From positions 1 through 64,000 of the IMG/VR virus record IMGVR_UViG_3300023184_000101: 64,000 bases of DNA. One strand, written 5' to 3'. Each line of letters begins with the position of its first letter. The first letter of the stretch is position 1. A model generated the notes under the pieces. The model saw nothing but the letters and a program-made list of their open reading frames with translations, did no database searches and was not told where the DNA came from. Source of the stretch: a virus. Of this stretch, positions 5,111 through 17,737 are shown piece after piece. The translations under genes were made by a program, and so were the position numbers.

Positions 5111-6379
5111 ATGAGCAAAATTTTTATTCAAATCGCATCATATAGGGACCCACAGTTAATCCCAACTTTAAAAGATATGATTGCAAATGCCAAGAAACCA
5201 AAAAATTTGGTTTTTTCAATCGCAAGACAATTCAGTGAAACCGATGGTTTCGATAACCTTGATGAATTCAGAAACGACAAAAGATTTAAAATCTTGGATA
5301 TTCCTTATCAAGATGCAAGAGGAGTTTGTTGGGCAAGAAATTTAACTCAACAACTATATGGTGGTGAGACTTATACAATGCAAATCGATTCTCACATGAG
5401 ATTTGTTAAAGATTGGGATGATATCCTGATTAAAATGATAAAGGGGTTGCAAAAGGATGGGTATAAGAAACCTCTACTTACGGGTTATGTACCTTCCTTT
5501 GACCCTGATAATGACCCTGCGGGTAGAGCACAAGATGCTTGGAGAATGGCGTTTGATAGATTTATTCCTGAAGGTGCGGTATTCTTTTTACCTGAAACAA
5601 TTCCTGGATGGAGAGAAATGAAAAAACCTGTAACGGCAAGATTTTATTCGGCTCACTTCTGTTTCACATTAGGTGAATTTTCAAAAGAAGTTCAACACAA
5701 TCCTGAATACTATTTCCATGGAGAAGAAATTTCAATCGCAGCAAGAGCTTACACTTGGGGTTATGATTTATTTCATCCTCACATTCCTGTGGTTTACCAT
5801 GAATATACTCGTAAGGGTAGAACAAAACAATGGGACGATGATAAGACTTGGGGTGACAAAAATAAACATTCACATTTAACAAATAGAAAGTTATTTGGAA
5901 TGGATGGCGAAACCCAAGAAGGTCACGATGGTCCTTATGGTTTTGGTACTGTTAGAACATTAAGAGACTATGAAAAATATTCTGGTTTGTTATTTGAAAG
6001 AAGAGCAATCGACAAACATTGTTTAGACAAACAATATCCACCAAGTCCTTATAATTTTGAAACAGAAGAAGAGTGGAAGGATAGTTTTGCAACAATATAC
6101 AAACATTGTATTGACGTTGGTTACACAAGCGTACCTGAAAAAGATTATGATTTTTGGGTGGTTGCATTTCATAATGCTAAAGATGAAACGTTACATAGAA
6201 GAGATGCAGATAAGAATGAGATTGCTGGTTTCATGAGAGACCCTGACGGATACTGTAAAGTTTGGAGAGAATTCCAAACCACAGAATTACCAACATATTG
6301 GGTTGTTTGGCCTCACTCAGAATCAAAAGGTTGGTGTGATAGATTAACGGGTCAGTTAAACCACAACAACGTTAGTTAA
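5111..6379 (+). CDS. Glycosyltransferase, GlcNAc-transferase family (PF11397-like)
   Basis: This GT-A-fold glycosyltransferase resembles the family that includes Skp1-hydroxyproline N-acetylglucosaminyltransferase. Family features seen are the start FIQIASYRDPQL (residues 5-16), the segment DARGVCWARN (68-77), and QIDSHMRF (91-98), whose D93-S-H95 is the usual metal and nucleotide-sugar binding DxH. An acidic HGEE segment follows near residue 203. The length of 422 residues fits a full enzyme. It would transfer a sugar to an acceptor in the host cytoplasm; donor and acceptor cannot be read from sequence. It overlaps the next gene by TAATG and begins a run of four glycosyltransferase-like genes directly after the Thr/Pro-rich fibres. 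Confidence 0.85.
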   Translation: MSKIFIQIASYRDPQLIPTLKDMIANAKKPKNLVFSIARQFSETDGFDNLDEFRNDKRFKILDIPYQDARGVCWARNLTQQLYGGETYTMQIDSHMRFVKDWDDILIKMIKGLQKDGYKKPLLTGYVPSFDPDNDPAGRAQDAWRMAFDRFIPEGAVFFLPETIPGWREMKKPVTARFYSAHFCFTLGEFSKEVQHNPEYYFHGEEISIAARAYTWGYDLFHPHIPVVYHEYTRKGRTKQWDDDKTWGDKNKHSHLTNRKLFGMDGETQEGHDGPYGFGTVRTLRDYEKYSGLLFERRAIDKHCLDKQYPPSPYNFETEEEWKDSFATIYKHCIDVGYTSVPEKDYDFWVVAFHNAKDETLHRRDADKNEIAGFMRDPDGYCKVWREFQTTELPTYWVVWPHSESKGWCDRLTGQLNHNNVS

Positions 6380-7122
6380 TGAAATTTAATGAAATACCAA
6401 AGTTTGTTGTTAATTTAGAAACAAGACCTGATAATCTTGAACTTATAAAAAAAGAGATGGATTATATTGGTTGGGAGTTTGAAAAGTTCAACGCGGTAAA
6501 TAGAAACAGTTATATGGGTTGTACCCTATCTCATTTGGAAATTATTAAAATTGCCAAAGAAAGGGGGTATGATAGAGTTATGGTTATTGAAGACGATTGC
6601 GTATTCATGCCATACGCCAAATCCCTTTTAGATGACATTGAAAAACAAACTGAAGGTATTGAATTTGGTGTGTTTAATATAACTCCGACTTTAAATAGGA
6701 AACTTAATCCGAGCGATAAATATGATTTATTATTAGACATTACAAATATTCCTCCAAAAGAAGAACATCATACTGAAACATTTGCAACAAATATTTTAAT
6801 CTATGATAAGTCAGTATATGACGAAATGTTTAATATTGCTTTGACCGCATTTACTGAATCAGGAGATTATTATTTTCCAATAGACGGGTACCTTGTTAAA
6901 TTTATTTATCCTAAGTTTCAAAGTTATTGTGCGGTATTACCTATTGCACCACAAAGAAATTCGTATTCTGACGTTTCTCATGGTATGTATAATAACTTCT
7001 ATACTCAAACGTATAATTGGAATTTATATTCTCCCAAGAAACTTCCAAACGAATTTAAAAGTGAGCAGGAGAATGAAAAAATAAAAGAAGAAAAAAAACA
7101 CATTCAATATTATGTCAGTTAA
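6379..7122 (+). CDS. Glycosyltransferase family 25-like
   Basis: The start KFVVNLETRPDNLE, the GCTLSHLEI segment (residues 48-56) and the acidic MVIEDDC motif (68-74, with E71-D72-D73) are characteristic of GT25 (LPS and collagen beta-galactosyltransferase-like) enzymes. At 247 residues it is of typical bacterial length. The start codon overlaps the stop of the previous gene (TAATG) and its 3' end overlaps the next gene by 11 nt, so the cassette appears translationally coupled. The sugar and acceptor are unknown. Confidence 0.8.
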   Translation: MKFNEIPKFVVNLETRPDNLELIKKEMDYIGWEFEKFNAVNRNSYMGCTLSHLEIIKIAKERGYDRVMVIEDDCVFMPYAKSLLDDIEKQTEGIEFGVFNITPTLNRKLNPSDKYDLLLDITNIPPKEEHHTETFATNILIYDKSVYDEMFNIALTAFTESGDYYFPIDGYLVKFIYPKFQSYCAVLPIAPQRNSYSDVSHGMYNNFYTQTYNWNLYSPKKLPNEFKSEQENEKIKEEKKHIQYYVS

Positions 7123-7993
7123 ATTTATAACATCGATTTATAGTGATTTACACGGAACAGAATTAGGTGGTAGAACAGGTAGAAATGGTCATTATAGATA
7201 TAGTTTATTGTCATTATTAAAAATGACGGATGCTGATTTTTTATGTTATACGTCAGATAGAGAAATAGAATCATTAAAAGAATTTTTCTATACAGATAAT
7301 AAAATTTCAGAAGAAAAATTAAAGTTTCAAATTTTTAATATTAGTGATACTAAATTTAAAGATTTAATTAGTAAAAGAAAAAATATAGACCAAATTAAAC
7401 AAGGGGATAGATGTGTTGAGATTCAATACTCTAAGTTTCATTGGTGGTGGAATGAGGATAAATCTTATGATTACTATTATTGGATTGATGCAGGATTTTC
7501 TCATTGTGGGTTAATTCCACCAAAATATTTACTTGGCGAACATCCTCAAGCAAGATATTATGAAAGTAGTTTATTTAGTAATGATTTTTTGAAAAATTTG
7601 ATTGAAGATACTGGTGACAAATTTTTAATTTTAGGTAAAGAGAATGATAGGAACTATTGGTCAGGAACTGTGAACCCAAAATGGTATACTGAGTATGATA
7701 GAAGTATTCACATTATTGGTGGTATGTTTGGTGGTCACAGAGATAAGTGGGATACTATAGTTAGTATGTTTGAAAGTTATATTGAGAATGTATTAACTGA
7801 AGATGAGGGATTACCTCACGAAGAACAAATAATGAGTTTGATGCACGTAAATCATAGAGATTTATTTGTAAGAAAACATTTTGATATATGGTGGTATAAA
7901 GGTAACTCCCCTTCAGGAGTATCGGACGAGATGTTCGAACAAAATAAAAGTTTTTATAAAATATTAGAAGAATTTAATAGAATTTATGAGTAA
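7112..7993 (+). CDS. HtrL/YibB-like putative glycosyltransferase
   Basis: The 293-residue protein shows YWIDAGFSH (about residues 123-131) and GGMFGGHRDKW followed by an acidic HEEQIMSL segment. This is the layout of HtrL/YibB family proteins (PF09612), which are thought to be GT-A-like transferases acting on surface polysaccharides. The start overlaps the GT25 gene by 11 nt and the end overlaps the next gene by 8 nt. The enzymatic activity of this family is poorly characterised, so glycosyltransferase is a family-level inference. Confidence 0.6.
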   Translation: MSVKFITSIYSDLHGTELGGRTGRNGHYRYSLLSLLKMTDADFLCYTSDREIESLKEFFYTDNKISEEKLKFQIFNISDTKFKDLISKRKNIDQIKQGDRCVEIQYSKFHWWWNEDKSYDYYYWIDAGFSHCGLIPPKYLLGEHPQARYYESSLFSNDFLKNLIEDTGDKFLILGKENDRNYWSGTVNPKWYTEYDRSIHIIGGMFGGHRDKWDTIVSMFESYIENVLTEDEGLPHEEQIMSLMHVNHRDLFVRKHFDIWWYKGNSPSGVSDEMFEQNKSFYKILEEFNRIYE

Positions 7994-9656
7994 AATAACT
8001 TTAGTAACCGGTATATGGAATATCGGTAGAGATGAATTACAGGAAGGATGGTCAAGACCATTCCAACATTATTTGGATAAATTTTCTCAATTATTAGAGG
8101 TGGATACCAACATGATAATTTTTGGAGAAGAAGAATTAAAAGATTTTGTCTTTAGTAAAAGAAGTAGAGAAAACACTCAATTTATTACAAGACCATTAGA
8201 TTGGTTTAGAAACAATGAGTTTTTTGATATGATTCAAAAAATAAGAACTAATGAATCTTGGTCAAACCAAGTTGGTTGGTTAAAAGAATCAACACAAGCA
8301 AGATTGGAAAATTACAATCCTCTTGTAATGTCTAAAGTATTTTTACTTAACGACGCTAAAATCATGGACCAATTCAATTCGGAATATTTGTTTTGGATTG
8401 ATGGTGGTTTAACAAATACCGTTCACCCTGGTTACTTTACTCACGATAAAGTTTTAGATAAATTATCTAAACATATTTCTAAATTTTCATTCATTTGTTT
8501 CCCTTATGATGCTGAAACTGAAATTCATGGATTTGAATATAATAAATTAAATTCAATTGCTGGAGATAAGGTAACAAAAGTTGCTAGAGGTGGTTTCTTT
8601 GGTGGTCCTAAAGATTCTATTAGTGATATTAATGGAATTTACTATTCATTATTAAAGACAACCTTAGATGAGGGATATATGGGTACTGAGGAATCTATTT
8701 TCAGTATTATGTGTTATAAACATTCTGATATTATAAATTATTTTGATATTGAATCAAATGGTTTAATTGGTAAGTTTTTTGAGGATTTAAAAAATGATAC
8801 CCTTAAAACTAAAAATGAAAGTAAGGTTGTTGTAACAAATAATTTGGACACCAATAAAGTTGGTCTATATGTTATAACATTTAACAGCCCAAATCAATTT
8901 AGAACTTTAATTAAATCAATGACTGAGTATGATAAAGATTACTTACTTAAAACTGAAAAGTTTTTATTAGATAACTCTTCTGACGAATCTACCTTTGAAG
9001 AATACGCTAAACTTTGCGAAGAACATAACTTTACTCATATCAAAAAAGATAATTTAGGAATATGTGGTGGAAGACAATTTATTGCCGAACATTTTGATAC
9101 AACAGATTTAGATTATTATTTATTCTTTGAAGATGATATGTTTTTCTTTCCAAATGAAGGGGTTTGTAGAAATGGGTTTAATAGATATGTCCCAAACCTA
9201 TACACCAAGTCATTAGAGGTTATGAAAAAAGAAAATTTTGATTTCTTAAAACTTAATTACTCAGAATTTTACGGAGATAATGGAACCCAATGGGCTTGGT
9301 ATAATGTACCTCAACATGTTAGAGAAGAATTTTGGCCAGGTAAAAACAGATTACCTGTTCAAGGGTTAGACCCAAATGCACCAAAAACAGTTTATAGTAA
9401 TGTCTTATCCCACAAAGGATTACCTTACTCAGTTGGTGAAGTTTATTACTGTAATTGGCCACAACTTGTTAGTAGACCTGGAAACCAAAAGATGTTTTTA
9501 GATGTGACATGGGCACACCCATTCGAACAAACATGGATGAGTCATATGTATCAGTTAGTTAAAAAAGAGGAATTATATCCTGGATTACTACTTTTAACCC
9601 CAACTGAACATAATAGATTCGAACATTATGACGGGGGTCTTCGTAAAGAGTCATAA
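7986..9656 (+). CDS. Two-domain protein: HtrL/YibB-like domain fused to GT-A glycosyltransferase
   Basis: The N-terminal half (about residues 1-280) is HtrL/YibB-like: TLVTGIWNIGRDE at the start, FWIDGG near 136-141 and GGFFGGPKD near 200. The C-terminal half begins at about residue 290 with KVGLYVITFNSPNQF, contains the DNSSDES and NLGICGGRQ segments of family 2-like transferases, and has an acidic FFEDDMFF motif near residue 380. At 556 residues this looks like a fusion of two transferase modules. It is the last gene of the cassette. The fusion suggests that two consecutive sugar transfers may be coupled on one acceptor. Confidence 0.65.
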   Translation: MSKITLVTGIWNIGRDELQEGWSRPFQHYLDKFSQLLEVDTNMIIFGEEELKDFVFSKRSRENTQFITRPLDWFRNNEFFDMIQKIRTNESWSNQVGWLKESTQARLENYNPLVMSKVFLLNDAKIMDQFNSEYLFWIDGGLTNTVHPGYFTHDKVLDKLSKHISKFSFICFPYDAETEIHGFEYNKLNSIAGDKVTKVARGGFFGGPKDSISDINGIYYSLLKTTLDEGYMGTEESIFSIMCYKHSDIINYFDIESNGLIGKFFEDLKNDTLKTKNESKVVVTNNLDTNKVGLYVITFNSPNQFRTLIKSMTEYDKDYLLKTEKFLLDNSSDESTFEEYAKLCEEHNFTHIKKDNLGICGGRQFIAEHFDTTDLDYYLFFEDDMFFFPNEGVCRNGFNRYVPNLYTKSLEVMKKENFDFLKLNYSEFYGDNGTQWAWYNVPQHVREEFWPGKNRLPVQGLDPNAPKTVYSNVLSHKGLPYSVGEVYYCNWPQLVSRPGNQKMFLDVTWAHPFEQTWMSHMYQLVKKEELYPGLLLLTPTEHNRFEHYDGGLRKES

Positions 9657-10143: not shown

Positions 10144-12942
10144 ATGATATCTGACGAAGAGATTGAATCGTTCCTACACGGAAACGACCCCGAAGAATTT
10201 ATTGTCGCCATCGAGTACGACTATCGCGAAAACTGCATTTACAAAATCAAAGAAATCCCTGGTAAAGGAAAAGAAATACGTAAAGATACGTTTACCCCAT
10301 TTGCGTGGGTGGGTGATTTACGTGGTATTAAGTTCTATAATGATTCCAAGGCATTACAGAAAGAGGCGATGACCAAACACGGTATCGTCATAGACAAATT
10401 AGAAACTCACGGTAACGAGAGATTAGAAAAAGGTATGACCTACATGGTTAAATCCCTTAAAGGTTATAGAGAACTTATTCAGTTCTTTAGAGATGGTGGT
10501 TGCGACCCGTGGGGAGACAGGACAAAGGATAAGGTGATGATTCTACCTCCTGTGGAACAATATTTAATTTCCAAAGAAAAAAGACTATTCAAAGGTTTTG
10601 AGAACTACGAAGAAGTGACTCGACTTGTATATGACTTAGAAACGACAGCCCTTGACCCAAAGGATGGTCGTATATTCATGATTGGAATTAAAACAAATAA
10701 GGGTTACCACAAGGTTATCGAATGTATGGATGAGTCCCAAGAGATGGGTGCCATCATAGAATTCTTTAAGATTATTAACGAAATCAAACCAAGTATTATT
10801 GGTGGGTATAACTCAGCGAACTTCGACTGGCATTGGATATTCGAAAGATGTAGAATCTTAGGTATCGACCCAAAGAAGATATGTAAGTCGTTACACCCCG
10901 AACATTCATTCACAAGAAAGGATAGTATGTTAAAACTTGCCAATGAGGTGGAGGAATATGTTCAGACATCCATTTGGGGTTATAACGTAATTGATATTAT
11001 CCATGCTGTTCGTAGAGCTCAAGCGATTAATTCAAGCATCAAAGCTGCGGGTTTAAAGTATATTACAAAATTTATTAATGCTGAAGCTCCTGACCGTGTG
11101 TATATCGACCACGAGAACATTGGTAAAATGTATACTAACAAAGAAGATTATTGGTTGAATATACAAAACGGTAAATATAGAAAGGCGAAAGTTGACCCAA
11201 AGATTGATGAAGTTTGTGAAAAAAGAACTGACGTTTATATTAAGACAACAGGAGATAATATTGTTGAGAGATATCTTGACGATGACTTGGATGAAACATT
11301 AAAAGTTGACCAAGAGTTTAACCAAGGTTCGTTCTTGCTTGCTGCAATGATTCCAACAACTTATGAGAGAGTATCAACAATGGGTACCGCAACATTATGG
11401 AAGATGTTAATGTTGGCGTGGTCTCATAAACACGGACTTGCAATACCAGCAAAAGAATCCAAGACAGACTTCGTAGGAGGTCTTTCTCGACTACTTAAGG
11501 TTGGTTATAGTAAGAATGTATTAAAGCTCGACTTTTCGTCTCTATACCCCTCTATTCAGCTCGTACACGATGTGTTCCCCGACTGTGATGTAACAGGTGC
11601 AATGAAAGGTATGTTAAGTTACTTCCGTAACACCCGTATCAAATACAAACAACTTGCTGAAGAGTTTTATAACATCGACCGTAAGAAGTCCGAATCATAT
11701 GGTAACAAACAATTACCGATTAAGATTTTTATTAACTCGATGTTCGGAGCCTTGTCTGCACCTCAGGTGTATGCGTGGGGTGACATGTATATGGGAGAAC
11801 AAATTACTTGTACGGGTAGGCAATACCTTCGTCAAATGATTAAGTTCTTTATGACTAAGGGTTATGTTCCGTTGGTAATGGATACGGATGGTGTGAACTT
11901 CTCTACTCCTGATGATGCCAAAGACCGAGTTTATGTTGGTCGTGGATTGAATTGGAAGGTAGTGTTGGGTAAAGAATATTATGGTCCTGAGGCCGATGTT
12001 GCAGAGTATAATGATATCTTTATGAGAGGTGAGATGGCTCTTGATACCGATGGGGTGTGGCCGTCTTGTATTAACTTGGCTCGTAAGAACTATGCTGTTA
12101 TGGACTCCAAGGGTAAGATTAAGTTAACCGGTAATAGTATTAAGTCAAAGAAACTTCCATTGTATATTGAGGCGTTCTTGGATAAAGGTATTAAAATGTT
12201 ATTGGAAGGTAATGGTAAGGCGTTCGTAGAATACTATTATGAGTATCTACAAATCATTTATGATAAGAAAATTCCATTGAGTAAAATCGCCCAAAGAGCA
12301 AAGGTTAAATTAACCCTTGAGGATTATTCTAAAAGATTAAATACCAAAACTAAAGCGGGTAATAGTATGAGTAGAATGGCTCATATGGAATTGGCAATTA
12401 AAGAAAAATTAAATGTGAACTTGGGAGATGTTATTATGTATGTTAATAACGGTACCAAGGCGTCTCAGGGTGATGTTCAGAAGATGACTGCAAAACAAAT
12501 TAAAGATACGAATTTAGTTAATCAATATAATGACCCTAAATCTAAACCAATCACTGATGGCGTTATGATTAATTGTTATATGTTGGATAAAGATATTTTG
12601 GAGAAAGACCCTGATTTAACAGGTGATTATAATGTTCCAAGAGCGATAACAACATTCAACAAAAGAATTGAACCGTTGATGGTTGTATTCCAAGATGAAG
12701 TTAGAAATCATTTGATTGTTGATAATCCACAGGATAGAGGAATTTTTACAACATCTCAGTGTGAGTTAATAAACGGACATCCGTTAGGTGAAGGTGACCA
12801 AGATGATTTACAAAAAGATGTTATGGATATAACCGAACCTGAATTACGTTATTGGGAAAAAAGAGGTTTGAAATCTGATTATATGTATGATTTAGCTGAA
12901 GAGGGTTGGAAAGAAAAATTAGGAATTCTTCAAACCGTCTGA
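10144..12942 (+). CDS. DNA polymerase, family B (gp43-like)
   Basis: This is the replicative DNA polymerase with 3'-5' proofreading. Exo I is YDLETTALDP (D163, E165), Exo II is GGYNSANFDWHW, and the polymerase motifs are A LKLDFSSLYPSIQ (about residue 463), B KIFINSMFGALSAP (about 525-540) and C VMDTDGVNF (about 578-586, with D580-T-D582). The length of 932 is close to T4 gp43. The 3' end overlaps a minus-strand gene by 24 nt, a convergent overlap. Codon use in the first two thirds looks richer in C-ending codons than the surrounding structural genes, perhaps because of high expression or a different history. Confidence 0.97.
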   Translation: MISDEEIESFLHGNDPEEFIVAIEYDYRENCIYKIKEIPGKGKEIRKDTFTPFAWVGDLRGIKFYNDSKALQKEAMTKHGIVIDKLETHGNERLEKGMTYMVKSLKGYRELIQFFRDGGCDPWGDRTKDKVMILPPVEQYLISKEKRLFKGFENYEEVTRLVYDLETTALDPKDGRIFMIGIKTNKGYHKVIECMDESQEMGAIIEFFKIINEIKPSIIGGYNSANFDWHWIFERCRILGIDPKKICKSLHPEHSFTRKDSMLKLANEVEEYVQTSIWGYNVIDIIHAVRRAQAINSSIKAAGLKYITKFINAEAPDRVYIDHENIGKMYTNKEDYWLNIQNGKYRKAKVDPKIDEVCEKRTDVYIKTTGDNIVERYLDDDLDETLKVDQEFNQGSFLLAAMIPTTYERVSTMGTATLWKMLMLAWSHKHGLAIPAKESKTDFVGGLSRLLKVGYSKNVLKLDFSSLYPSIQLVHDVFPDCDVTGAMKGMLSYFRNTRIKYKQLAEEFYNIDRKKSESYGNKQLPIKIFINSMFGALSAPQVYAWGDMYMGEQITCTGRQYLRQMIKFFMTKGYVPLVMDTDGVNFSTPDDAKDRVYVGRGLNWKVVLGKEYYGPEADVAEYNDIFMRGEMALDTDGVWPSCINLARKNYAVMDSKGKIKLTGNSIKSKKLPLYIEAFLDKGIKMLLEGNGKAFVEYYYEYLQIIYDKKIPLSKIAQRAKVKLTLEDYSKRLNTKTKAGNSMSRMAHMELAIKEKLNVNLGDVIMYVNNGTKASQGDVQKMTAKQIKDTNLVNQYNDPKSKPITDGVMINCYMLDKDILEKDPDLTGDYNVPRAITTFNKRIEPLMVVFQDEVRNHLIVDNPQDRGIFTTSQCELINGHPLGEGDQDDLQKDVMDITEPELRYWEKRGLKSDYMYDLAEEGWKEKLGILQTV

Positions 12943-13254
12943 TGATAAGATGTACCATGTACCACCAACAAATCTAAACTCAACACAGGCATATCTGTCC
13001 ATTACTATTTCGTCATAATCCTCATCAATCTTACCTACATCAGGTCTGATTGTGAGGTGTGTCATAGACTTAACTACAACGTGGTCGGTTGTTCTTGAAT
13101 CAAGAACCACAACTGAAAATGGTATGCCTGTTACAATAACACACTCTTCACCGTTTGTGCGATAATCCAACTCCGAAACCATTGAGATTTCTGATGTGGT
13201 GATTTGCATCCCGTTGATAATCCTTCTTGAGGGTATTGTTCTTACTATTGCCAT
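12919..13254 (-). CDS. Hypothetical small protein downstream of gp13-like gene
   Basis: This 111-residue product has no recognised family. It is beta-rich in appearance and ends FVGGTWYILSSDGLKNS. It starts 4 nt after the stop of the gp13-like gene on the same strand and its end overlaps the polymerase gene by 24 nt. Its position suggests a neck or virion component but nothing in the sequence proves this. Confidence 0.6.
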   Translation of the reverse strand: MAIVRTIPSRRIINGMQITTSEISMVSELDYRTNGEECVIVTGIPFSVVVLDSRTTDHVVVKSMTHLTIRPDVGKIDEDYDEIVMDRYACVEFRFVGGTWYILSSDGLKNS

Positions 13255-13258
13255 AAAA

Positions 13259-14383
13259 TTAGATTACGTAAATTTGACGAGGCATTGCTCTAAATTTCAT
13301 TTGTTTGTTTAGGTTTTCAGCAATTTGGGCTTCTCTTTCCATTACTTTTTCAGGTCTTAATCTTGTTAACCAACCTTCAGCACCTGTTAATTCTTCTAAT
13401 AGTTTAGATTTTTCGTCTTTAGCTTCTGTTAATAAACTTGTGTAGTCCATTGTAATTTCAGAGTCTGGTGTTTTTAAATTACCACTATACTTACCTCTTA
13501 CTCTTGCTAATGTTTCTTTTACATAAGCTGTGAACCATCTTCTAACCCATTGTTTTCCCGGAACATTTAATTCTTCCCACGATAGTTCTTCTAATGGAAC
13601 ATCTGTTGGAAGTTTAATAACATCTTTGTTTGCCTTAAGACAAGCCGCCCTGTCATCAGGACCTACATCATAATACCAATACCATACTGCTTTTCCAACG
13701 TAACCACTATATTGATTCCAGTTAAATTTTCCACCAGGTGTATTGTATAAGAAAATATTCTTTTTACCATCAGGTAAACCTGTAATTCTGTAAGTTAATG
13801 AACCACCTAAAATTCTATTTAGGATATTGGCTTCTTGCATTCTGATTAAATAATCAAAACCCGACATCATATAATAAGAACCTTGATTACCCATTTGAGC
13901 AAATCCTGCTTGGTCAGCACCAAGACCTACACCACCGCCAACACCAGCAAATCCGCCCAAACCAAATGCGGTCCAAGCTTGATTGCTAAACCATAAAAGT
14001 TCATTAACCTCACGACCTGCGGGGATTTCATAGTTTTGTGTGTTAGCACTTAATATAAAATAATCTTTCTTTAATACCCACGGACCCATAGTTTGAAGTC
14101 CAACAATTTTTGAATATGAATATGCGAACTGTTGTTCAAAATCCATTGTTCTTGTAACCAACGCCTTTGCAACAGATTTTTCAGACATGTTTAAGTTAAC
14201 AAGGTTAACCCATTGACTATCAATTAACCATTGTAAAATGTATTCTTCATAATCTTGAATAGATAATTCCATCAAAGAATCCATCATTTCATCTTCGACT
14301 TCTACACTTCTCAAAGGAGCACCTAACAGGTGTTTAATTCTCGTGTATATTTTTGACCTTTCTGGTTCTGGAATTACTGCCAT
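13259..14383 (-). CDS. Neck protein, gp13-like
   Basis: The 374-residue protein begins MAVIPEPERSKIYTRIKHLL, has LSIQDYEEYILQWLIDSQW and, near the C-terminus, RVRGKYSGNLKTP...EITMDYTSLL followed by a helix that ends in a short basic tail. These features and the length match T4-type gp13 neck proteins of environmental phages, which close the filled head and join it to the tail. A Gly-rich stretch at about residues 140-168 (GLGGFAGVGGGVGLGADQ) is an odd insertion. The genes in the gp14, gp15, gp18 and gp19 positions follow on the opposite strand from 17792, so the gene order is T4-like but this gene is in an inverted block. Confidence 0.55.
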   Translation of the reverse strand: MAVIPEPERSKIYTRIKHLLGAPLRSVEVEDEMMDSLMELSIQDYEEYILQWLIDSQWVNLVNLNMSEKSVAKALVTRTMDFEQQFAYSYSKIVGLQTMGPWVLKKDYFILSANTQNYEIPAGREVNELLWFSNQAWTAFGLGGFAGVGGGVGLGADQAGFAQMGNQGSYYMMSGFDYLIRMQEANILNRILGGSLTYRITGLPDGKKNIFLYNTPGGKFNWNQYSGYVGKAVWYWYYDVGPDDRAACLKANKDVIKLPTDVPLEELSWEELNVPGKQWVRRWFTAYVKETLARVRGKYSGNLKTPDSEITMDYTSLLTEAKDEKSKLLEELTGAEGWLTRLRPEKVMEREAQIAENLNKQMKFRAMPRQIYVI

Positions 14384-14407: not shown

Positions 14408-15946
14408 TTATTCGATGTTTAACTTTAAAGCATCGATTGGAAACACATAATTACCATTAAATATCTTAGGTTTTTTGTTAAAAATTAAAACGTTTTTTCC
14501 TTTTTGGAATATCAATAAATCGGTACTATAATACTTAACCTTACCAGTACCAAGAAGTGTAATAGTTCCTTTTTCTTCGTCAACTATTTTAACTTTGAAT
14601 GGTTTAACTTGTGCAGTTTCTGTCTTGCCTCCACTTGTCAATTTCAAATCAATTCCTGATAATGCATCTTCTTTACTACCAAGTTTACCAATTTGTTCTA
14701 TCTTAACATCTTTACCAAAATATCTTCTTAATATGGCTGCTGTTATTTCTTCTCTCTTATCCCCCATAGCGTTTTTCTCTTCAAGAGTCTTCATTATGTT
14801 AACAAACGTTGAACTTTTAGTATCAAAAATTTTATATTTAAAATGGTCTAAAGCGTTAACAAATCTTTCAACTTCTTTAAGTTGTTCGTTAGGGTTTTTA
14901 CCTTTAAATACAATTGGTTTTTTACCTTCTATTGTTTTAATAACTTGGTTGATGTCGCTAAGTAAAATACAGAACGTTGTGTAGTTTGTGTTTAATTTAT
15001 TAATAACAGACCTTCCTTCATTTTCTAAATTGAATATCCCCGGTAATTCACCCTTAGGTGGATTGGAAACATATAGGTCACTAAAGACCTCAATTAATAT
15101 TCTTTCGATTCCGGCTCTATATCTTGATTCAATATCTTTGTGTGTGTTGAATAACTTTCTATAAAAATCAGTTTCTTCAGGTGAACATGCTTCTGATTTT
15201 GCTTCAGACATAAGTTTTTTTAATTCTGTAGACTCAGTTAATTTTGTCTTGGTCTTCATTTTGTACATCTTGGTTACAAAATCCCAGTTCACAACTTTCC
15301 AAAAGTTTGCAATATATTCGTCTCTTTTGTTTCTGTATTTTAAATAATATGCATGTTCCCATAAGTCTAATCCTAAAAGTGGAAACCCACCGTTCTCAAT
15401 AACATTCATTAATGGATTGTCTTGATTAGGTGTCGACATTATTTTCAAAGTATTTCTTGTTGTTAATACTAACCATACCCAACCTGAACCAAATCTGTCT
15501 TTAGCAACTGCTTCAAACTTTTTCTTAAAGGTAGGAAAACTTCCAAAGTCTTTTATAATTTTCTTGTAAAGGTCTCCTTCTAATTTCTTTGGAGTTGGGG
15601 TCAACATATTCCAAAACAGTGCGTGGTTAAATGCCCCACCTGCGTTGTTTCTAATTGATTTATCAAACCTACTTATCGTTTTGATAATTTGTTCTAACTC
15701 TACATCCCCATATTCTTTCTTTGATAAAGCACTGTTTAACTTGTCTACATAACCTTTATAGTGTTTGTTGTAGTGAAAGTTCATTGTCTCTGCGTCAATG
15801 AATTGTTTGAGGGCGGAATAGGAATAGGGTAATTTTTCTATTCCAATTTTTTTCATTTCAGTTATTAACTGATTGGCTTGTTCTTCAACTTTTGATTCAA
15901 TTATCTTATTTTCTGTAAGTTGAATTTTCTCTTCTATTTTGTTCAT
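14408..15946 (-). CDS. Fe/Mn superoxide dismutase fused to a PD-(D/E)XK-like nuclease domain
   Basis: Residues about 37-230 form a complete Fe/Mn superoxide dismutase. All four metal ligands are in place: H58 (MNFHYNKHYKGYV), H108 (GGAFNHALFWN), D194 and H198 (LLGLDLWEHAYYLKY), with the GSGWVWLV strand. Such enzymes convert superoxide to oxygen and peroxide. A linker with KLTEST and a helical region (about 255-390) lead to a C-terminal domain whose E400, G431-I-D433 and Q446-V-K448 match the E...GxD...(E/Q)xK core of PD-(D/E)XK nucleases. The N-terminus (IQLTENKIIESK) and the linker (KLTEST) each contain an LxE tripeptide, the type of site cut by T4 prohead protease, which would be compatible with packaging in the head. 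The SOD call is firm; the nuclease and packaging ideas are inference. Confidence 0.85.
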   Translation of the reverse strand: MNKIEEKIQLTENKIIESKVEEQANQLITEMKKIGIEKLPYSYSALKQFIDAETMNFHYNKHYKGYVDKLNSALSKKEYGDVELEQIIKTISRFDKSIRNNAGGAFNHALFWNMLTPTPKKLEGDLYKKIIKDFGSFPTFKKKFEAVAKDRFGSGWVWLVLTTRNTLKIMSTPNQDNPLMNVIENGGFPLLGLDLWEHAYYLKYRNKRDEYIANFWKVVNWDFVTKMYKMKTKTKLTESTELKKLMSEAKSEACSPEETDFYRKLFNTHKDIESRYRAGIERILIEVFSDLYVSNPPKGELPGIFNLENEGRSVINKLNTNYTTFCILLSDINQVIKTIEGKKPIVFKGKNPNEQLKEVERFVNALDHFKYKIFDTKSSTFVNIMKTLEEKNAMGDKREEITAAILRRYFGKDVKIEQIGKLGSKEDALSGIDLKLTSGGKTETAQVKPFKVKIVDEEKGTITLLGTGKVKYYSTDLLIFQKGKNVLIFNKKPKIFNGNYVFPIDALKLNIE

Positions 15947-15963
15947 ATTATTGGACTATCTTA

Positions 15964-15972
15964 TAATAAATA
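15964..15972 (-). promoter_or_regulatory. TATTTATTA motif (minus strand) before SOD gene
   Basis: TATTTATTA read on the minus strand from 15972, 26 nt before the ATG at 15946, in the 39-nt gap after the SNF2 gene. Confidence 0.45.
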
Positions 15973-15985
15973 ATCCGTTTTTCGT

Positions 15986-17737
15986 TTAACGACGCATTTC
16001 TTGAATTCTCTTTAGAATTTCCTCCGCAGCATCTGTCGTGTTTTGATTGTCCCCCATAACTGTGGCAATCACTTGTTTTTTATTATTTAAGATGTCGTAG
16101 ATAATTCCTTCGATTGTGTTTTCGAATATGGGGTAGTAAACTAATACATTGTTCTTTTGACCGTATCTGTAGGCACGGTCTTCGGCTTGTGAGTGGTCTG
16201 ATGGTAGAAATGATAGGTCATTCATAATAACAGCTTCAGCGGCGGTTAATGTTAAACCAACACCGGCTGCTTTGATGTTACCAACAAACACTTTTATTTT
16301 TTCATTGTCTTGGAATTGGTCAACCGAGTTTTGTCTTTCGTGCTTTGGTGTTGAGCCATCGACTCTAACCGCCGCCTTTCCAAAGTGTTCACATATCTTA
16401 GATAGTGAGTCTGTGAAGTTACAGAATATAATAACTTTCTTTCCTTGCTCAACGATGTTTTCGGCCAACTCAATTGTTTGACTAATCTTCTCATCGGCAA
16501 TTACTTGTCGTATCTTGGTTAACTTGGTGAACTGAACGGTAAGTGATTTTGATTCGTCGGGGTTCTTATCATACCAATCATAATATTCACCCATAATATC
16601 TTCATATGCTTTCGACTTTAATCTAAGGTATACTGGTGTGATAATCTTATCAGGTAAATCTAAAACATCTTCCTTTAATCGTCTTAAGGTAAGACCCGCA
16701 GTCCTATCTCTTAACTCTTCAAGATTACTGGCACCTGTAACGTTCCATATCTTTCTACCACCAGCATTGAACTGATATCCACTACAATATCTGATGGCGT
16801 ATGCCATCCAGTTTTTGGCTACGGGTGAATCAACTAAACTTAATAAGTTAAAATAATCCATCGGTCTTGAAGTCATTGGTGTACCTGTTAACAACCAAAG
16901 TCTATCAACTTTCTTTACAAGGTCGTTGATTAGTTTTGTTCTTTGTGCTTGACCGTTTTTAATATAGTGTGCTTCATCAACGACAACCAAATCAAAATCG
17001 GCTCCAAGAATTTGCGAATCAGATTTCTTTTTAACATTATGAAAATTTTTAATAATATCGTAATTTATAATAACAAAGTCGTGTTCTTTACTGAAGTTCT
17101 TTCCTTCAGAAATATAAACACTTCTGTCTGTGTAGTTTGCAATTTCTCTTTGCCAGTTTATCTTCAAACTCGCAGGACAAACAATCAAAACTTTTTTGGA
17201 CCCACTTTCAAGTGCCGCAATTATAGTTGATGTAGTCTTACCAAGACCCATATCATCAGCCAAGATATACTTCTTATTCTCAACAAGTTTTTGAATTGCC
17301 TCTTTTTGATGAGATAGTGGTGGTCTGTGAGAATATTTTTCATAACTAATAACAACGTCTTTTACTGTATTATCTTTAATGACCGCGGCTTTAGGTAACC
17401 AAAAGTCGTGGAGTTCTTCTCTCTCAAAAACTTTTCCCCAAATGTGAAACGCCTTTTCCTTTTCTGCCAACAACTTCTCCACCCAAACTTTTTCAGGTAT
17501 TGTGGTGTATAATTTATCGTCAGCCAGTCTCTGAGCAAAATAAGCATCAAGTATCACCCACTTCTTGGCTACTTTAGGTGGCTTGTCGTGATTGTTTATA
17601 ATATATTCAGATTGACTCCTTGTAGGATAAAATCTCTTATTCAACCGTGACTTCCTTTTAAGCTCAAGAATGTAGTTGTTGGGACCTTCATAGTTATCCA
17701 ATAAGGACATTGCTTTTGACTCTAAACTTAATTCCAT
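15986..17737 (-). CDS. SNF2-family helicase, SMARCAL1/HARP-like
   Basis: This DNA-dependent ATPase has Walker A DDMGLGKTT (residues 161-169), a DEAH box VVVDEAHYIK (251-260), LLTGTPMTS (motif III) and the SNF2 C-terminal motif QAEDRAYRYGQ near residue 535. Upstream of the ATPase core is a region (about 55-125) like the substrate-recognition part of HARP enzymes. In T4 the related UvsW helicase remodels forks and branched DNA, and this protein probably does similar work in replication or recombination. It heads a minus-strand group of four genes. No TATTTAT motif precedes it, unlike the next gene down. Confidence 0.93.
   Translation of the reverse strand: MELSLESKAMSLLDNYEGPNNYILELKRKSRLNKRFYPTRSQSEYIINNHDKPPKVAKKWVILDAYFAQRLADDKLYTTIPEKVWVEKLLAEKEKAFHIWGKVFEREELHDFWLPKAAVIKDNTVKDVVISYEKYSHRPPLSHQKEAIQKLVENKKYILADDMGLGKTTSTIIAALESGSKKVLIVCPASLKINWQREIANYTDRSVYISEGKNFSKEHDFVIINYDIIKNFHNVKKKSDSQILGADFDLVVVDEAHYIKNGQAQRTKLINDLVKKVDRLWLLTGTPMTSRPMDYFNLLSLVDSPVAKNWMAYAIRYCSGYQFNAGGRKIWNVTGASNLEELRDRTAGLTLRRLKEDVLDLPDKIITPVYLRLKSKAYEDIMGEYYDWYDKNPDESKSLTVQFTKLTKIRQVIADEKISQTIELAENIVEQGKKVIIFCNFTDSLSKICEHFGKAAVRVDGSTPKHERQNSVDQFQDNEKIKVFVGNIKAAGVGLTLTAAEAVIMNDLSFLPSDHSQAEDRAYRYGQKNNVLVYYPIFENTIEGIIYDILNNKKQVIATVMGDNQNTTDAAEEILKRIQEMRR

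Follow-up and report, generated by a model that had tools for sequence, protein, structure and literature searches.

A superoxide dismutase and a predicted PD-(D/E)XK nuclease encoded by one gene in T4-like aquatic phages, and its possible packaging in the phage head

The window (the whole stretch of viral DNA analyzed here, 64,000 nucleotides long) contains on its minus strand an open reading frame for a 512-aa protein at 14408..15946, where the first-pass annotation had placed a superoxide dismutase (SOD) joined to a nuclease-like domain; 170 distinct homologues with both domains support the gene. From its N- to C-terminus, the protein consists of a helical leader (residues 1-30, 15857..15946) that ends at ITE 28-30, a SOD domain (residues 36-230, 15257..15841), an interdomain stretch with the tripeptides LTE 236-238 (15233..15241) and MSE 246-248 (15203..15211), a central helical region identified by alignment and AlphaFold2 helices (residues 256-390, 14777..15181; signature GRSVINKLNTNY at residues 311-322) and a predicted PD-(D/E)XK nuclease domain (residues 379-512, 14411..14812). 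On the same strand, the conserved upstream neighbor encodes an SNF2-family helicase (15986..17737; family matches and synteny), while the conserved downstream neighbors encode an Ad2-like neck or head-tail adaptor protein (13259..14383; PHROG 211, E=2.5e-10, and synteny) and, after it, a 111-aa protein recognized by synteny (12919..13254).

The SOD domain was identified by Pfam search (Sod_Fe_C, E=8.7e-40; Sod_Fe_N, E=2.2e-23) and by phmmer, with which SODs of the PDB, MnSODs included, match the protein down to E=8.4e-60. The ligands H58, H108, D194 and H198, which had been read as those of an intact Fe/Mn SOD, show no variation across 93 distinct aligned relatives, on which all counts of residue conservation given here rest, and that reading holds. 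G103-G104 together with Q175 form what we take to be the Mn-type pattern. Judged by its sequence, the domain is a Mn-type SOD with intact catalytic residues. It shares with the Fe/Mn SODs (PF00081/PF02777) the full domain, the four ligands and conserved second-shell residues, but its fusion to the nuclease part and the [L/I]xE sites on either side of it set it apart. The other phage SODs found (e.g., those of PA5oct-like phages and Vibrio phage 2.275.O) match the fusion over the SOD part only. A full-length AlphaFold2 model, whose SOD part was poor (pTM 0.56, shallow alignment), was set aside.

Structure prediction of the C-terminal domain, proposed earlier as a check on the nuclease, yielded a confident model (AlphaFold2 with 24 homologues; pLDDT 89.9, pTM 0.84) that contains a PD-(D/E)XK nuclease core; the result named earlier as refuting the idea, a predicted fold lacking this core, did not occur. 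By Foldseek, this model is nearest to I-Ssp6803I, the best match, and to Hjc, with probabilities of 0.93-1.00 for the leading matches, a best E-value of 2.6e-3 and a TM score that is low across the full query. E399 (14750..14752), D433 (14648..14650) and both Q446 and K448 of Q446-V447-K448 (14603..14611) are without variation in the 93 aligned members, while residue 400, which is E in the fusion, is V, Q, D or I among its relatives. Because E400 varies, the acidic residue that the nuclease motif contributes from its helix is assigned to E399 and not, as first suggested, to E400; the D433 and QxK parts of the suggested motif are retained. By prediction, the domain has the PD-(D/E)XK fold with the catalytic E, D and QxK, and it may be an active nuclease. 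The core fold and the E...D...QxK motif are shared with I-Ssp6803I and archaeal Hjc, but the fusion has in addition an extra long helix, the helical region and the GRSVINKLNTNY signature, and it has no sequence-family match: region 236-512 gave none above the cut-off in Pfam (24 members searched) or PHROG, and no sequence match in the PDB. The Hjc family is absent among the Pfam matches listed for these 24 members, the likeness to Hjc being one of fold only. Searches for TnsA-like and Endonuclease VII families, run without a positive control, gave no match.

A scan of viral contigs gave 377 matching stretches, each coding for a relative, and the fetched IMG/VR loci contain the 170 distinct SOD+nuclease proteins, 152 of which are full-length. 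The search in other phages that had been recommended found the fusion repeatedly, and its slot is constant: the SNF2 helicase comes first, then the fusion, the neck adaptor and the 111-aa protein, followed by a DNA polymerase gene on the opposite strand. Identity falls to 46% overall and to 37% in the C-terminal part. Both domains are present in almost every homologue whose gene is complete, and an artefact of SOD-only or nuclease-only genes was rejected as an explanation of the fusion; contig-end copies seemingly without the SOD (e.g., L194, L215 and L263) were set aside as truncated. In one locus (L176), the gene is apparently split by a frameshift into frames of 345 and 193 aa, by sequencing error or decay, and in another (L340) about 1.1 kb of extra DNA, which most relatives lack, separates the fusion from the neck (Ad2) gene. 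Diverged paralogues of the nuclease module are found in related genomes (L370, L371, L372 and L463), of which that in L372 (496 aa) starts with ILITEKQ; its nuclease is preceded by a CxxC..CxxC stretch resembling a zinc ribbon and by a KVMVYYNLHKHTFSVTY domain.

Among the INPHARED phages, none significantly matches the C-terminal part of the fusion, and the nearest cultured phage, Flavobacterium phage immuto, is matched weakly through its neck protein and helicase. Shine-Dalgarno sites are nearly absent before the genes of related genomes (3/152, 6/296 and 5/188), which fits a Bacteroidota-type host but is not proof of one. Among the matches listed from two scans of cellular genome contigs, made with poor search patterns, there was no fusion. 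We found no description of the fusion or of its leader tags in the literature searched, which included few subscription journals. In BFVD, A0A6J5L953 of an uncultured Caudovirales phage (501 aa) matches in its C-terminal fold (TMq 0.86, 35% identity); more distant and annotated only as "superoxide dismutase", with its nuclease part bearing no annotation, it apparently belongs to the fusion family. A second BFVD entry, the 1113-aa protein A0A8D9CCA0 of an uncultured marine phage, is likewise a match for the nuclease model (TMq 0.80, 21% identity), which means that the nuclease module has a different partner in that protein.

Three conserved [L/I]xE sites border the SOD domain. The pattern is found in 86/93 aligned members at 28-30, in 88/93 at 236-238 and in 85/93 at 246-248, and with [LIVM] at the first position both interdomain sites are present in 93/93. 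At 236-238, E238 is invariant, the middle residue is free and S or T comes next in 86/93 members. Of the remaining sites listed at a threshold of 60% of the 93 members, that at 15-17 in the leader is weaker, and the others are within folded regions, among them 195-197, which belongs to the SOD motif WEH, and 284-286. The first-pass annotation had named LTE 10-12 and LTE 236-238 as possible cleavage sites of a prohead protease, one after an N-terminal peptide and the other between the domains. Both tripeptides exist in this sequence, but only the interdomain one is conserved; the pattern at 10-12 is confined to the near group and was rejected as a cleavage site, the conserved N-terminal site being 28-30, which was missed along with 246-248. 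Cleavage by the T4 head protease occurs after E, and residues 8 and 10 (P3 and P1) of the IPIII leader govern processing (PMC9026906). The [L/I]xE motif is short, and a helix could instead be the reason why E238 and E248 are conserved.

In the 308-kb phage G017 (locus L354), the nuclease alone occupies the fusion slot, and its record has no SOD match. About two dozen distinct SOD-less sequences were found, and in the nuclease tree (a quick tree with a midpoint root, in which the truncated L194 accounts for a third label change) such forms arise at least two times inside SOD-bearing clades. In L408 and L409, the pre-SOD segment INEMKKIEIEKL is fused directly to the post-SOD segment KSIISEGKSERC; the SOD is complete in L427, a close sister of the two. 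Because of this INEMKKIEIEKL remnant and of the two nested positions, SOD-less forms are not favored as pre-fusion ancestors. With the SOD lost at least two times and the nuclease retained, the nuclease is the core part of the protein. SOD-less relatives also keep a short N-terminal segment equivalent to the fusion leader, which in most of them ends in LxE[S/T] and in which the site aligns with 246-248 of the fusion; in one sub-group, LIQ replaces it (L403).

Upstream of the fusion gene is TATTTAT (15966..15972, minus strand), a probable late-promoter-type motif found in 152/154 homologous leaders. In the window, it precedes many virion genes, including those for the sheath, the tube and a baseplate protein, and it is absent before UvsX, exonuclease, DnaB and RNR, with SSB as the exception. 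This distribution, in which the motif precedes the fusion and many virion genes and not most replication genes, suggests that the fusion gene is expressed late. Directly ahead of the start codon, a stem-loop that overlaps TATTTAT (15953..15976, minus strand) is predicted in most, not all, homologous leaders. In T4, hairpins in the leaders of some late genes block translation of early read-through RNA, and the arrangement at the fusion gene may be similar.

The 182-kb relative G001 encodes a prohead protease of the S77 family and a capsid protein of the gp23 type, and it is the only record in which family search found the protease, the others being fragments; neither an S77 protease nor a gp23 match was found in the window's own record (68.7 kb). 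In the capsid protein, the site LINE|A is conserved among G001, G017 and a further related genome, G013. N-terminal [L/I]xE[S/A] occurs 9 times in G001 vs. 2.6 expected (chance maximum 8) and 28 times in G017 vs. 4.8 expected (chance maximum 13), while the excess in G013 is weak (8 vs. 3.1 expected, chance maximum 10); control motifs stay within their chance maxima in all three. The recurrent leader forms are MKLIITESQYxxL and MKKIIKLTESDLxxIVKRV, and we regard such tags as candidate capsid-targeting leaders. MKxIITES[QKR] or MKKxI[KR]LTESDLxxIVKRV forms the N-terminus of dozens of proteins (L465-L480 in G017, L164-L173 in G001 and L481-L490 in G013), and the cargoes behind these [L/I]xE-ended tags are mostly proteins of unknown function; the tag MKKIIKLTESDL is proposed as a candidate for head packaging. 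Among the listed genes of the window, the fusion is the sole one with an [L/I]xE[S/A]-type motif in its first 25 residues, and the tail, baseplate and replication proteins of the window have no such N-terminal tag. For a G017 protein suspected of being RuvC-like, Pfam gave no match, and the protein was not used.

The T4 internal proteins, whose capsid targeting sequence is cut by gp21, resemble the fusion in having a short [L/I]xE-ended leader before diverse cargo (PMC9026906), a layout that is matched best by the SOD-less relatives. The leader is 30 residues long in the fusion vs. 10-20 in T4, however, and the fusion has extra, putative interdomain sites and a cargo with no PHROG family match. 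Foreign nucleases can be packaged by the T4 capsid targeting sequences (PMC9026906; PMC3012670). Based on these comparisons, we propose, with about even confidence, that the fusion is a late, head-packaged cargo like the T4 internal proteins, in which a PD-(D/E)XK nuclease is preceded by a Mn-type SOD and which is cut by the prohead protease. The fusion protein would enter the prohead, where the phage S77 protease would cut it after E30 and after E238 or E248, so that the SOD and the nuclease would become separate packaged enzymes and enter the host together with the phage DNA. There, the substrate of the nuclease may be host or competing DNA, or the nuclease may process phage DNA ends, while the SOD may remove superoxide in early infection or protect the packaged DNA. 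A packaged active nuclease would have to be kept off the phage genome. A broader version, in which short LTES/ITES-type leaders throughout the genome load many enzymes into the head and the SOD-nuclease polyprotein is cut into a co-injected antioxidant and DNase, is more tentative and seems to us somewhat improbable.

Packaging and processing are favored by the [L/I]xE sites that flank the SOD, the S77 protease, the retained capsid site, the tag enrichment, the synteny with the neck gene, the late-type TATTTAT and the LxE-ended leaders of the SOD-less forms. These sites and leaders are left unexplained by the main alternative, that the protein is a late, intracellular, structure-specific (Hjc-like) nuclease that debranches DNA before or during packaging together with the SNF2 helicase, is neither packaged nor cut, and has the SOD as an accessory. 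Hjc resolvases among the Foldseek neighbors, the SNF2 helicase and neck genes that adjoin the fusion in synteny tests and the lack of an Endonuclease VII match in the relatives, from a search without a positive control, all point to such a role, which we judge rather unlikely. Antioxidant genes, SODs included, are often carried by freshwater phages (PMC6802176), but an intracellular antioxidant gene whose C-terminal part only anchors the SOD to DNA, with no working nuclease, is hard to reconcile with nuclease motif residues that are invariant in 93 members and with the repeated loss of the SOD instead of the nuclease, and has little probability. Equally improbable is a homing-type endonuclease, free-standing and directed at competing phages, that acquired a SOD, as the constant slot and orientation, the strong conservation and the lack of any intron or insertion pattern seen argue against it despite the homing enzyme I-Ssp6803I as top Foldseek match and the nuclease-module paralogues in some related genomes.

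A SOD and a nuclease-type domain encoded by one gene are widespread in T4-like lake and sea phages, and the sequence evidence suggests that both may be inside the virion. If the packaging proposal is correct, widespread aquatic T4-like phages inject an antioxidant enzyme and a nuclease that the head protease frees from a single precursor. Phage SODs, which tend to be listed as no more than auxiliary metabolic genes, would then gain a testable role, and a sequence tag would become available for predicting packaged proteins of uncultured phages. Even without packaging, annotated "superoxide dismutases" of this family need rereading as a strict SOD-nuclease fusion in which the SOD is the dispensable half. 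Elsewhere in the window, a cluster of glycosyltransferase-like genes at 5111-9656, one of which weakly matches beta-glucosyl-HMC-alpha-glucosyltransferase, may function in DNA or surface glycosylation.
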